A stretch of 64,000 bases of DNA from Brucella thiophenivorans (GTDB lineage Bacteria > Pseudomonadota > Alphaproteobacteria > Rhizobiales > Rhizobiaceae), in NCBI RefSeq assembly GCF_002252445.1, contig NZ_NNRJ01000015.1, positions 372,001 through 436,000 of the forward strand. Direction: 5' to 3'. The notes under the pieces are model-generated. The model did no database searches. It had not been told where the DNA came from and saw only the letters and a list, made by a program, of their open reading frames with translations. This document shows, in pieces, positions 38,043 to 41,869 of the stretch. The position numbers and the translations under genes are program-made. The first letter of the stretch is position 1, and each line of letters starts with the position of its first letter.

Positions 38043-38834
38043 ATGAGCCAGCAAAACGGCAATGCGCACCGCGTGGGCGCACAAGGTGGCATGGAACATT
38101 CATTCGGCTTCAAATCGGTCGATGAAGATGTCAAGCAAGGGCTGGTCAACGACGTTTTCCATAAGGTTGCGAAGCGCTACGATGTGATGAACGATGTCAT
38201 GTCTGCTGGTATGCACCGCGTCTGGAAAGATGCGATGATCGCCTGGCTGGCACCTTCCAAACGTCCCGGCTACACATCGCTCGATGTTGCTGGCGGAACG
38301 GGAGACATTGCTTTCCGTATCGTTGAAGCGTCAGGCCGTCAGGCACATGTAACAATTCTCGACATTAACGGCTCAATGCTGGGCGTTGGTCGCGAGCGGG
38401 CGATCAAGAAGGGCCTTGCCGATAATCTCGAATTCGTCGAAGCCAGTGCGGAAGAGCTGCCCTTCGAAGATGCAAGCTTCGATGCCTACACGATTTCATT
38501 TGGCATCCGTAACGTGCCGCATATCGATATGGCGCTTTCAGAAGCCTATCGCGTGTTAAAGCCCGGCGGCCGTTTTATGTGCCTCGAATTTTCCGAAGTC
38601 GAAATGCCATTGCTGGATAAGATTTACGACCAGTGGTCATTTCAGGCAATCCCGCGCATCGGCAAGATGATTACGGGTGATGCCGATTCCTACAGCTATC
38701 TGGTAGAATCCATTCGCAAATTTCCAAAGCAGGAAGACTTTGCTCGTATGATCCGCAACGCTGGTTTTGAGCGGGTCAGTTATCGCAATTTCACCGGCGG
38801 AATTGCCGCACTTCATTCCGGCTGGAAGCTTTGA
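38043..38834 (+). CDS. ubiE: Ubiquinone/menaquinone methyltransferase UbiE
   Basis: 263 residues with the SAM-binding motif [14 protein letters not shown] near residue 82, the UbiE/COQ5 signatures [18 protein letters not shown] and [24 protein letters not shown], and the C-terminal [15 protein letters not shown]. It C-methylates the quinone ring in ubiquinone synthesis. Seven bases separate it from ubiB. Confidence 0.97.
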
Positions 38835-38841
38835 GACTGAC

Positions 38842-40425
38842 ATGAGCAATATTTCTGCGGCGCTGAGGTTGATGCGTGCTGGCTGGATCATGGCGCGCGA
38901 AGGCGTGTTGAGTTCACTGCCGGTTGATGATGATGCCGGTTTGCCCGCATTGGGACACAAGGTTGCCAAGCTGCTCGCGCGTAAGCGTGTGAAAGATGCA
39001 CCTCGTTCGGAGCGTATTTCGCGCGCGATGAATAAGCTTGGTCCATCCTATGTGAAGCTTGGCCAGTTTCTGGCAACCCGCCCCGATATTGTCGGCAATG
39101 ATGTCGCTGCTGATCTTGAATTGTTGCAGGATCGGCTTGATTTTTTCCCACAGGCGGAAGCGGTTTCTGCCATTGAAGGTTCTCTGGGTCGCAAGATCGA
39201 TGATCTTTATGTGAGCTTTGATGCGCCGATTGCGGCAGCATCGATGGCGCAGGTGCATCCGGCCCATGTGATGAAGGATGGAGCGCCGCACAAGGTCGCG
39301 GTCAAGGTTATCCGCCCGGGCGTGCGCCAGCGCTTTGCGCGCGATCTGGAAAGCTTTTTCATGGTTGCCCGTATGCAGGAGCGCCATGTTCCTTTCACGC
39401 GCCGTCTGCGTCCTGTCGAAATGGTGAAAACGCTGCATCAGACCACGCGCATCGAGATGGATTTGCGCCTTGAAGCGGCAGCGCTTTCCGAGATCGCAGA
39501 AAATATCAAGGATGATGCTGGTTTCCGCGTTCCAAATGTGGATTGGGAGCGCACAGGCCGCGATGTACTCACATTGGAGTGGATCGACGGCATCAAGATG
39601 TCTGACATCGATGGATTGCGTGCGGCCGGTCTTGATCTTAAAAAGCTTTCAGAAACGCTGATCCAGTCGTTTCTGCGCCATACGCTGCGCGATGGTTTTT
39701 TCCATGCTGATATGCATCCGGGTAATTTGTTTGTCGATCCGCAAGGCATGATAGTAGCTGTGGATTTCGGCATTACCGGGCGGCTCAACAAGCAGCAGCG
39801 GCGGTTTCTGGCTGAAATTCTTTACGGCTTCATTACCCGCGATTATATGCGGGTTGCGGAAGTGCACTTTGAAGCAGGTTATGTGCCGCACACGCATGAT
39901 GTGGCGAGCTTTGCGCAGGCTATCCGCGCCATTGGCGAGCCTATCCATGGTCAGCCTGCCGAAACCATTTCTATGGCCAAGCTTCTGACACTTCTGTTTG
40001 AAGTGACCGAGCTTTTCGACATGGAAACACGGCCGGAGCTTCTGATGCTTCAGAAGACTATGGTTGTGGTGGAAGGCGTTTCGCGCACGCTCGATCCGCA
40101 TTTCAATATGTGGAAAGCGGCAGAACCTGTCGTTGGTGATTGGATCAGAAAGAATCTTGGACCGCAGGGCATGTTGATCGATGCAAAAGATGGTGTCTAT
40201 TCGCTGCTGCATTTGACCCGCAAAACGCCGGAACTTGTAGCACGCGTGGAGCGCCTATCTGTGGCGCTTGATGAGATGGCGGTCAATGGATTGCGCTTTG
40301 ATGAAGCGACTGCTGAAGCCATTGGCCGTGCGGAAGCGCGGCATTCGCGCTGGGGTCGCATTGCGCAGATCGTGATTGCAATTTCATCGGCTGCGATTGC
40401 AATCAAGCTCTATATCGAGCTTTAA
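38842..40425 (+). CDS. ubiB: Ubiquinone biosynthesis kinase-like protein UbiB
   Basis: 527 residues of the ADCK/UbiB family. The KxGQ motif is in SYVKLGQFLATRPDI near residue 72, the alanine-rich loop in APIAAASMAQVHPA, and HADMHPGNLFVD and VDFGITGRL form the atypical kinase core. The hydrophobic C-terminus (IAQIVIAISSAAIAIKLYIEL) anchors it in the inner membrane. It supports late ubiquinone synthesis. ATG 38842 is the first after ubiE. Confidence 0.95.
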   Translation: MSNISAALRLMRAGWIMAREGVLSSLPVDDDAGLPALGHKVAKLLARKRVKDAPRSERISRAMNKLGPSYVKLGQFLATRPDIVGNDVAADLELLQDRLDFFPQAEAVSAIEGSLGRKIDDLYVSFDAPIAAASMAQVHPAHVMKDGAPHKVAVKVIRPGVRQRFARDLESFFMVARMQERHVPFTRRLRPVEMVKTLHQTTRIEMDLRLEAAALSEIAENIKDDAGFRVPNVDWERTGRDVLTLEWIDGIKMSDIDGLRAAGLDLKKLSETLIQSFLRHTLRDGFFHADMHPGNLFVDPQGMIVAVDFGITGRLNKQQRRFLAEILYGFITRDYMRVAEVHFEAGYVPHTHDVASFAQAIRAIGEPIHGQPAETISMAKLLTLLFEVTELFDMETRPELLMLQKTMVVVEGVSRTLDPHFNMWKAAEPVVGDWIRKNLGPQGMLIDAKDGVYSLLHLTRKTPELVARVERLSVALDEMAVNGLRFDEATAEAIGRAEARHSRWGRIAQIVIAISSAAIAIKLYIEL

Positions 40426-40465
40426 TTCAACTGTTTGTTGATTAATCAATAAAAGAGTGATTTCA

Positions 40466-40498
40466 TTGATTGCACCGATAATGATCTGGTGCAATCAA
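40466..40498. promoter_or_regulatory. Perfect 11-bp inverted repeat directly before coaBC
   Basis: TTGATTGCACC (40466-40476), 11 spacer bases, and the exact complement GGTGCAATCAA (40488-40498), ending on the base before the ATG. The half-sites are 22 bases apart centre to centre, two turns of the helix, which would suit a ribbon-helix-helix protein bound on one face. It also covers the ribosome-binding region, so folding of the RNA could act on translation. Confidence 0.8.
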
Positions 40499-41869
40499 AT
40501 GGCTAGTATTACAATTCGCAATCTTGATGATGCCGCAAAAGAGCGGCTGCGTGTGAGGGCCGCTCGCAACGGGCGCTCTATGGAAGAAGAAGCGCGGCTT
40601 CTGCTTGGCGGTTTGGACGAGGTAAAGCCTGTAAGTCAGGCTGCGCCGGTTGCTGGTTCACTGCGCGATATGCGCATTCTTCTGATTATCAGTGGCGGGA
40701 TTGCGGCTTACAAAGCGCCTGATCTCATTCGTCGTCTCCGTGAACGTGGCGCGCATGTGCGTCCCTTGATGACGGCAGCAGCGCAGCAGTTTGTCACAGC
40801 CCTGACCATCGGTGCGGTGTCAGCCGATCATGTTTACACTGATCTTTTCTCACGCCAGGACGAGCAGGATGTCGGGCATATCCGCCTTGCGCGTGATGCT
40901 GATCTGATTGTCGTGGCACCAGCCACCGCAGGCCTGATGGCAAAAATTGCAAACGGCATTGCAGATGATCTGGCAAGTGCTGTGTTGCTTGCGCGCAAAG
41001 TTCCGGTGCTACTTGCGCCCGCTATGAACCCCGCCATGTGGGACAATCCAGCAACGAAGCGCAATCGACTGACTTTGCAAAATGACGGTGTTCACTTTAT
41101 AGGCCCCGAAAAAGGCGAGATGGCAGAAAGTGGCGAGGCGGGTTTGGGCCGCATGAGCGAGCCATTGGCAATTGTTGCTGCCGTTGAAAATCTGCTGGTC
41201 TCGCACGCAAGACCACTTTCAGGCAAGGTCATCGTCATGACGTCCGGGCCGACCCATGAGCCGATTGATCCGGTGCGCTATATCGCCAATCGCTCGTCGG
41301 GCAAGCAGGGGCATGCAATCGCTGCCGCACTGGCAAAGCTCGGCGCTAAAGTGCATCTGGTTTCAGGGCCTGTTACGATCCCAGACCCGCAAGGCGTAAA
41401 CGTTATCCATGTTGAAACGGCGCGCGAGATGCAGGCCGCAGTCGAGCGTTATTTACCTGCCGATGCAGCAGTGATGGTCGCAGCCGTTGCCGATTGGCGC
41501 ACGGCCAATGCTGCCGAGCAGAAAATCAAAAAGCAGCCGGGTGAGGGAGCACCAACGCTCAGTATGGTGGAAAATCCCGATATTTTGGCCGGCGTTGGCC
41601 ACAGCGACAAGCGCCCACACCTTGTGGTGGGCTTTGCTGCCGAAACGCAGGACGTACTTGCCAATGCCGGGCGCAAGCTTGAAAAAAAGGGTGCGGACTG
41701 GATCGTCGCCAACGATGTTTCGGGTGATGTGATGGGCGGAGATCGCAACCGCGTGCGCATCTTAAGCCACGCCGGTATTGAAGAATGGCCGGAGATGAGC
41801 AAGGAACAGGTGGCGGAAAAGCTCGCGGAAAAGTTAGCGGTGACATTGCTGGATCTCAACAAAGCATAG
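40499..41869 (+). CDS. coaBC: Bifunctional CoaBC with an N-terminal FitA-like ribbon-helix-helix domain
   Basis: 456 residues. Residues 1-40 (MASITIRNLDDAAKERLRVR, then AARNGRSMEEEARLLL) match FitA/StbC ribbon-helix-helix antitoxins. A linker (41-57) leads to CoaC (58-240: ISGGIAAYKAP, His127 in GHIRLARDADL, PAMNPAMW) and CoaB (from 241: TSGPTHEPIDPVRYIANRSSGK, AAVADWR, KIKKQ, FAAET, ANDV). It makes 4'-phosphopantetheine in two steps. Where E. coli CoaC has Cys158, the aligned residue is Ser211 in AESGEAGLGRM. An internal ATG at 40670 would give a normal CoaBC but lacks a ribosome site. Confidence 0.93.
   Translation: MASITIRNLDDAAKERLRVRAARNGRSMEEEARLLLGGLDEVKPVSQAAPVAGSLRDMRILLIISGGIAAYKAPDLIRRLRERGAHVRPLMTAAAQQFVTALTIGAVSADHVYTDLFSRQDEQDVGHIRLARDADLIVVAPATAGLMAKIANGIADDLASAVLLARKVPVLLAPAMNPAMWDNPATKRNRLTLQNDGVHFIGPEKGEMAESGEAGLGRMSEPLAIVAAVENLLVSHARPLSGKVIVMTSGPTHEPIDPVRYIANRSSGKQGHAIAAALAKLGAKVHLVSGPVTIPDPQGVNVIHVETAREMQAAVERYLPADAAVMVAAVADWRTANAAEQKIKKQPGEGAPTLSMVENPDILAGVGHSDKRPHLVVGFAAETQDVLANAGRKLEKKGADWIVANDVSGDVMGGDRNRVRILSHAGIEEWPEMSKEQVAEKLAEKLAVTLLDLNKA

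Follow-up and report, generated by a model that had tools for sequence, protein, structure and literature searches.

A FitA-like ribbon-helix-helix domain on the CoaBC enzyme of Brucella thiophenivorans and its relatives: a probable repressor of its own gene

Results

CoaBC with an antitoxin-type domain

The stretch of DNA analysed here, referred to below as the window, comprises 64,000 nucleotides of Brucella thiophenivorans (contig NZ_NNRJ01000015.1, positions 372,001 to 436,000), and the subject of this study is its gene for CoaBC, an enzyme of coenzyme A (CoA) synthesis, together with the DNA directly ahead of that gene. The open reading frame (ORF; 40499-41869, plus strand) encodes 456 residues, in which an N-terminal ribbon-helix-helix (RHH) domain of the FitA antitoxin family precedes a complete CoaBC. 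The domain (residues 1-37, 40499-40609 on the plus strand, delimited by family match, invariant residues and codon selection, with the predicted recognition strand MASITIRN) matches PF22513 (Pfam FitA-like_RHH) at residues 2-36 with 62.4 bits, the gathering cut-off being 27 (E 3.7e-17 with the whole protein and 2.8e-19 with residues 1-57 alone). With phmmer, the solved chains closest to residues 1-57 are those of gonococcal FitA (2h1o and 2bsq, E about 3e-4). A variable linker follows (residues 38-55, 40610-40663, plus strand) which, by comparison with relatives and with antitoxin tails, has no recognisable toxin-binding tail. The remainder, with the stop codon, is the CoaBC core (40664-41869, plus strand), and the TIGR00521 coaBC_dfp equivalog spans residues 56-446 with 419.4 bits at a cut-off of 219.7. 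Within the core, on the same strand, lie the flavoprotein or CoaC part (40670-41191, PF02441, residues 58-231) and the DFP or CoaB part (41216-41761, PF04127, residues 240-421). The initial annotation of this DNA, made from the letters alone, had read an RHH antitoxin pattern at the N-terminus and an intact CoaBC from residue 58 on, and the family searches bear out both.

Judged by family match and by conserved stretches, the core is an intact bifunctional enzyme. In particular, K342, K344 and K345 of the CoaB KxKK motif are invariant in 24 fused sequences, as are the CoaC columns G126-L130 and N177, P178, M180 and W181. The latter fall in GHIRL and NPxMW, which we take to be conserved stretches of CoaC. 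KxKK is described as a conserved stretch of CoaB (PMC7794376, partial text).

The RHH codons are, by the comparison of relatives, under purifying selection. Among ten close relatives, the window included, the mean ratio of nonsynonymous to synonymous substitution rates (dN/dS) is 0.079 for codons 1-37 (42 usable pairs) and 0.038 for the first 120 core codons (45 pairs), and the linker changes in sequence and length among the same ten. Residues M1, T5, R7, R18, A22, S27, E29 and R33 are invariant in 37 aligned fused proteins. The RHH frame is open and in frame with the CoaBC core in 58 loci, and the length before the core, RHH included, ranges from 57 to 100 residues.

Operator-like sites before the start codon

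Directly ahead of the gene lie two arms of 11 bp each (40466-40476 and 40488-40498), 100% complementary and 11 bp apart, the right arm abutting the ATG at 40499. Among 20,000 mononucleotide shuffles of the 73-bp intergenic stretch, 15 produced a perfect inverted repeat of 11 bp with a gap of 0-25 between its arms, so that a chance origin of the repeat is unlikely, though not impossible, and the comparative evidence given below is the stronger. The initial annotation had emphasised this perfect repeat; its exactness, its 11-bp spacing and its place at the ATG stand, but the conserved unit is TGATTGCA and its counterpart TGCAATCA rather than the whole 11-bp arm. The window holds three operator-like sites of 8 bp. 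The first, TGATTTCA (40458-40465, plus strand), known from the sequence and from the same layout in a related locus (L003), starts 9 bp before the second, TGATTGCA (40467-40474, plus strand), which by sequence comparison forms the core of the left arm; 23 bp further on, the third reads TGCAATCA on the plus strand (40490-40497, minus strand), forms the core of the right arm and ends one base before the ATG. The three thus make up a tandem pair and an inverted third site, all within the last 41 bp before the start codon.

Within the genome, this arrangement is peculiar to the locus. Both the tandem TGATTKCA-N-TGATTGCA, with one mismatch allowed, and the full 11-bp repeat occur once in the whole genome. 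Pairs of the form TGATTGCA-N0-30-TGCAATCA number three in the genome, two of them at the junction of coaBC with the gene upstream, which we take to be ubiB. One of the two, TGATTGCA-N17-TGCAATCA (40373-40405, found by the genome scan, no strand assigned), lies inside the 3' end of ubiB and is kept just in part in L003; it is possibly an auxiliary operator, or else a by-product of the coded residues. The third pair in the genome (C73:4580, L255) has within about 200 bases a single ORF of at least 70 amino acids, one of 123 amino acids that ends before the site. Scanning the genome for such pairs revealed no CoA regulon elsewhere.

Sites and domain across related loci

The sites recur wherever the fusion does. 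For this comparison we scanned 165 of 169 classified loci for TG[AC]T[AT][GT]CA within 100 nt upstream of the gene, leaving out L049 (a duplicate of L023), two loci with a PIN gene only and one with an RHH ORF only. The commonest 8-mer upstream of fused genes is TGATTGCA, present in 51 of 58 loci, and the motif itself is present in all 58, with at least two sites in 52 of them. The 58 fused loci contain 146 sites in total, against a mean of 1.2 and a maximum of 5 in mononucleotide shuffles; the 69 loci with neither RHH nor PIN contain none. Neighbouring sites start 9 bp apart in 58 of 105 cases, spread over 45 of the 58 fused loci, the next commonest distance occurring 8 times among the 105, and the distance of the sites from the start codon varies from locus to locus. 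By these counts, the conserved element is an array whose 8-bp units read TGATTGCA or a close variant of it, in many cases at a spacing of 9 bp. Among independent pairs of loci that differ in the domain, as defined on supported branches of the CoaBC tree, the sites change alike in 7 of 7 (sign test, p 0.016). In the window's own genus, one genome (G016) is without domain and without sites together.

Finally, the window's genome (98.5% complete) contains, at an E-value of 0.001, a sole FitA-like RHH, namely that of the CoaBC fusion, and for this reason these sites have no other known FitA-like candidate.

Free antitoxins sharing the recognition strand

Independent of CoaBC, the sites stand before free antitoxins as well. 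RHH sequence, and not the sites, served to select the best 80 of at least 569 public loci. Of the 80, 48 are short antitoxins followed by a PIN gene, in unrelated bacteria such as Pseudomonas and in metagenome bins named Gemmatimonadetes, Acidobacteria and others, and these free antitoxins, with the same recognition strand, carry TGATTGCA within 110 nt upstream in 43 of 48 cases and any of the listed sites in 47. Recognised fused genes in the sample carry TGATTGCA in 27 of 27, and the five loci outside both classes (three cut or short CoaBC fusions and two antitoxins) in two. As far as sequence comparison goes, the promoters of the free antitoxins are the best independent evidence that sites and domain belong together.

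What is more, residue 3 of the recognition strand tracks the site. TGATTGCA accompanies Ser3 in 94 of 103 cases and any other residue 3 in 5 of 40, and antitoxins at the ubiB-coaBC junction with Thr3 show TGACTGCA, TGACAGCA or TGCTAGCA in 19 of 22 cases and TGATTGCA in 1 of 22. Among three Ser3 exceptions in the junction antitoxins, two are missing Arg7. This possibly hints at a recognition code in the FitA family, judging from the sequences compared. The gonococcal FitA operator presumably has TGATAGCA half-sites, and TGATAGCA is common in promoters of another family of the order (f35).

Spread of the fusion

A CoaBC match is present in 149 of 151 genomes of the window's family. The counts for the family rest on 145 loci in which both the gene and its upstream DNA were examined (G005, G031, G077 and G130 were left out), and the profiles used to detect RHH and PIN ORFs came from just a few of them, so that very divergent ORFs may be missed. 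On this basis 40 of the 145 loci carry the fusion, and in one of these a PIN gene precedes it. In another 37, coaBC is preceded by an RHH ORF together with a PIN ORF or PIN remnant, and the remaining ones comprise two with a PIN remnant only, one with an RHH ORF only and 65 with neither.

Of the 35 genomes in the genus, 33 have a match that begins at residue 1. The other two are G016, which is cleanly without the RHH domain, and G545, an incomplete genome with a match from residue 55. When the G016 locus (L004) is set beside L002 and L003, both domain and sites are missing, while the coaBC core has an open frame and shares 87% identity with that of the window. Across the order (397 genomes), at least 16 of 18 genomes of f35 are fused, and at least one of a further family (f16, genome G407). 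Regarding the other two f35 genomes, G225 is without the fusion and G458 lies outside the loci examined. In the class (115 genomes), an open-frame fusion was found in 0 of 80 other matching genomes; one genome of that sample (G635) aligns from residue 7 only by crossing two stops. Named carriers among the loci collected by RHH sequence are Brucella/Ochrobactrum, Phyllobacterium, Nitratireductor, Pseudohoeflea and Bartonella.

Neighbours, junction modules and the origin of the domain

Upstream of coaBC in the window lies a ubiB/ABC1-family gene (38767-40425, plus strand, counted from TTG as a putative start; PF03109 ABC1, 243 bits), and a similar ABC1/UbiB protein end reads upstream of many related coaBC loci. 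Downstream, family search identifies a trehalase. A PIN toxin gene was looked for next to the window's coaBC and none was found, its neighbours being the ABC1/UbiB-type gene and the trehalase. The absence of such a gene, claimed in the initial annotation, therefore stands for the window, but relatives do have a PIN gene at the same junction. As a separate observation, the window's genome contains four PIN genes, one of which (L260, G000:C46:388354-388737, a weak PIN match) is without an antitoxin ORF of at least 55 amino acids just upstream.

The ubiB-coaBC junction often houses FitA-like antitoxin and PIN modules or their remnants, namely in the 37 family loci counted above. Examples are L014, L020, L024, L025, L053, L056, L059, L062, L063, L065, L068 and L070, among others, and in the cases run against Pfam the families were PF22513 for the antitoxin and PF01850 for PIN. 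Two kinds of PIN occur at the junction, tandem antitoxins are seen in L014, L098 and L109, PIN remnants in L141, L153, L102 and L106, and a lone RHH ORF in L163; among the loci labelled as toxin-antitoxin, L141 and L153 show PIN in the form of remnants only, and the antitoxin of L156 is cut by the stretch covered. One locus, L143, shows an antitoxin-PIN pair (the antitoxin likewise cut by the stretch covered), then a site array and then the fused gene (-658 to +1446 from the fusion start), and it is the only one of the 58 fused loci with a PIN gene upstream. Another, L061, encodes a fused protein that keeps an antitoxin tail, SLYKRVRASVEPLGGIELDLPPRGDM, identical to the tail of the L068 antitoxin at 16 of 26 residues (61.5%, E 2e-8). 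When the remaining 57 fused proteins are compared with the tails of 37 junction antitoxins, two show matches of 7-10 residues and 55 none, and the window linker has no match.

Because of the junction modules and remnants, L143 and the tail of L061, the sequences indicate that the RHH of the fusion is an antitoxin domain and that possible stages of such a fusion exist among relatives. On an RHH tree, whose 38 columns give too little resolution for dating or counting the fusions, the fused label changes 6 times and the junction-antitoxin label 5 times, compared with 45 and 35 in shuffles, and at least two of the six changes of the fused label are forced by well-supported branches. The tree speaks against a simple scenario in which, for the bulk of the fusions, a local module was fused in place. 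One or a few old fusions followed by many losses, transfer, or several separate fusions are all possible.

Discussion

Taken together, CoaBC is, in our estimate with a probability of about 0.82, its own repressor, that is, an autogenous repressor-enzyme of the PutA kind built on a domesticated antitoxin, and the enzyme thus probably controls its own production. This is what we infer, as regards DNA binding, repression and the oligomer scaffold, from a body of sequence evidence that consists of the domain, the intact enzyme, the purifying selection, the sites, their co-occurrence with the domain and the relation to free antitoxins. The mechanism we propose is as follows. With its MASITIRN strands, an RHH dimer would enter the major groove at 8-bp sites of the TGATTGCA type. 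Binding at the three sites before the ATG, whose position within 41 bp of the start codon suggests a transcription block, would stop transcription into coaBC once enough CoaBC had accumulated. The domain would have come from the antitoxin of a FitA/PIN toxin-antitoxin module, and the fusion would have lost the toxin and, bar one known exception, the toxin-binding tail. FitA binds DNA via its RHH fold within the FitA-FitB complex (PMC3920265, partial text), and in the fusion the CoaBC oligomer would replace the toxin as the scaffold that joins RHH dimers. CoaBC of M. smegmatis forms a dodecamer whose vertices are CoaC trimers and whose edges are CoaB dimers, CoaC being at the core (PMC7794376, partial text).

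The initial annotation had suggested that the enzyme acts on its own control region, and the contrast of 58 of 58 with 0 of 69 loci, the 7 of 7 pairs and the 43 of 48 free antitoxins support an action of this kind. It had also named, as an observation that would speak against the idea, an absence of the repeat before other RHH-CoaBC genes; what we found is the opposite, with sites in all of the fused loci. Its description of the domain as captured, in turn, gains support from the modules and remnants at the junction (37 of 145) and from the tailed fusion L061, with the proviso that the direct donor may be another module.

That said, a number of observations weigh against the proposed self-repression. 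On the CoaBC tree (162 rows, FastTree) the label 'fused' changes state 15 times, a patchy pattern; no more than 40 of the 145 family loci have the fusion, and within the genus at least one genome does without it, so that it is dispensable. The site motif was defined after the first loci had been seen, and the loci share kinship. For the 69 loci without RHH and PIN the shuffle expectation is 0.7 sites, so that a zero is uninformative alone; by the sequence counts, the signal of the sites is their presence among fused loci and not their absence from the 69. Promoters of junction antitoxins contain TG[AC]T[AT][GT]CA in only 21 of 38 cases, and two fusions with Ser3, L061 and L076, have TGATTTCA and no TGATTGCA. 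As for residue 3, its association with TGATTGCA is not significant within the junction antitoxins (2 of 5 against 3 of 33, p 0.12), and by tree there are only 2 usable independent pairs. A scan of 40200-40700 for promoters of the sigma-70 type yielded no promoter, and the main transcription of coaBC may begin upstream of ubiB. Moreover, fused and junction sets are mostly unmixed on the RHH tree, so that the direct donors may have been other than the junction modules.

How do other explanations fare? One is that the fusion is an artefact, with the true start at 40670 and the codons upstream not expressed. CoaBC alone does make a complete protein, and the gene of the same-genus genome G016 has just a short stretch ahead of its core. 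However, the low dN/dS of codons 1-37, set beside that of the core, and the RHH frame kept open and in frame in 58 loci are hard to reconcile with silent codons; since the RHH codons are kept, in rate as well as in invariant residues, translation from 40499 is supported by the sequence comparison and a start at 40670 is very unlikely, the least probable of the readings considered here. Hardly more credible is the notion that the RHH is an extra dimerisation module of the enzyme only and the sites are relics. RHH domains dimerise, and by our inference the domain would be present in 12 copies per dodecamer; against this, every fused locus has sites, whose distance from the start codon varies, and the invariant residues of the 37 aligned sequences include T5 and R7, positions that face DNA in RHH proteins. 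Could another DNA-binding protein of the cell use the sites? Regulators often use inverted repeats, but these particular sites come and go with the RHH domain in all seven pairs and a second FitA-like RHH was not found in the genome at an E-value of 0.001, and we consider this explanation very improbable.

The same low standing applies to the proposal that the fused RHH still neutralises a FitB/VapC toxin and so guards against incoming modules. It could draw on the antitoxin-PIN modules or remnants at the junction in about a quarter of the family loci, on L143 with its antitoxin-PIN pair directly before the fusion, on the toxin-binding tail kept by L061, and on the four PIN genes of the window's genome, L260 among them with no antitoxin ORF of the required length ahead of it. 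Yet it is through the C-terminal region that VapB inhibits VapC, and FitAB has a similar arginine contact (PMC3384007, partial text); a match to antitoxin tails longer than 10 residues is seen in L061 alone among the 58 fused proteins, the window linker having no match; the conserved sites, too, would be left unexplained. A further proposal adds to autogenous repression rather than replacing it. Namely, CoaBC might be a metabolite-gated trigger enzyme in which CoA, acyl-CoA, cytidine triphosphate, 4'-phosphopantothenate or the state of the flavin mononucleotide makes DNA binding weaker or stronger, and transcription would then keep pace with the supply of CoA. Mycobacterial CoaBC is regulated by CoA thioesters (PMC7794376, partial text), and PutA couples an N-terminal RHH to a flavoenzyme (PMC5293562, partial text), but such coupling is not visible in the sequence, and the stretch of 57-100 residues before the core better suits a flexible tether than a conformational relay. 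Metabolite control of RHH-CoaBC, which the initial annotation had raised as a possible response to substrate or nucleotide, is a guess, and one less likely than not to hold. Somewhat more doubtful still is the full chain of events, in which a module was domesticated after loss of its toxin, the dodecamer became the RHH scaffold, and CoA or acyl-CoA came to gate repression, with transcriptional feedback as the result.

The closest known system is trifunctional PutA of E. coli and Salmonella, an RHH-flavoenzyme that represses its own gene (PMC5293562, partial text). In both cases an N-terminal RHH sits on a flavin enzyme of metabolism, the self-repression being predicted from the sites in the case of CoaBC. 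The enzymes are unrelated, though: PutA is catabolic and switches to the membrane, whereas CoaBC is biosynthetic, and the RHH here is of the FitA antitoxin family, with sites that are those of FitA-type antitoxin promoters. The principle of an RHH enzyme that acts as repressor of its own gene has a precedent in PutA; new here are the enzyme itself, the origin from an antitoxin and the site family. The relation to FitA/FitB modules (of the VapBC type) is that of a shared RHH family (PF22513), shared TGATTGCA sites in the own promoter (43 of 48) and, in relatives, the same chromosomal place; unlike them, the window gene has no adjacent PIN toxin and no toxin-binding tail, and it has an enzyme core. 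In comparison with plain CoaBC (TIGR00521; M. smegmatis, PDB 6TGV, PMC7794376, partial text), residues 56-446 are complete and KxKK is kept, while the fusion adds a predicted N-terminal DNA-binding domain and the site array.

Broader parallels exist as well. In NadR and BirA, a single protein both handles a cofactor and acts as repressor of the pathway it belongs to; these proteins are of the helix-turn-helix type and their ligand control is established, whereas here the domain is an RHH and ligand control is a guess.

In the open-licence literature we found nothing joining CoaBC with ribbon-helix-helix or with Bradyrhizobium and antitoxin, nothing joining pantothenate, ribbon-helix-helix and autoregulation, and no RHH antitoxin 'fused to' a 'metabolic enzyme'. 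Searches there on coaBC operators or repressors, and on VapC, Rhizobium and phosphopantothenoylcysteine, gave no such control among the matches listed, and those on the CoaBC dodecamer named nothing of this kind. In the partial text of the S. meliloti VapBC10 paper (PMC10945364), coaBC, ubiB and dfp do not occur; a toxin-antitoxin survey mentions antitoxin fusions, and in its partial text 'pantothen' and 'Dfp' do not occur (PMC2701414).

If the proposed self-repression is true, a core enzyme of metabolism would have turned an antitoxin domain into a repressor domain of its own, and possible steps in this process would still be seen among relatives, from the intact module through PIN remnants, the tailed fusion and the fusion beside a module to clean loss. 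Transcriptional control of coenzyme A synthesis in these bacteria would then be directly testable.
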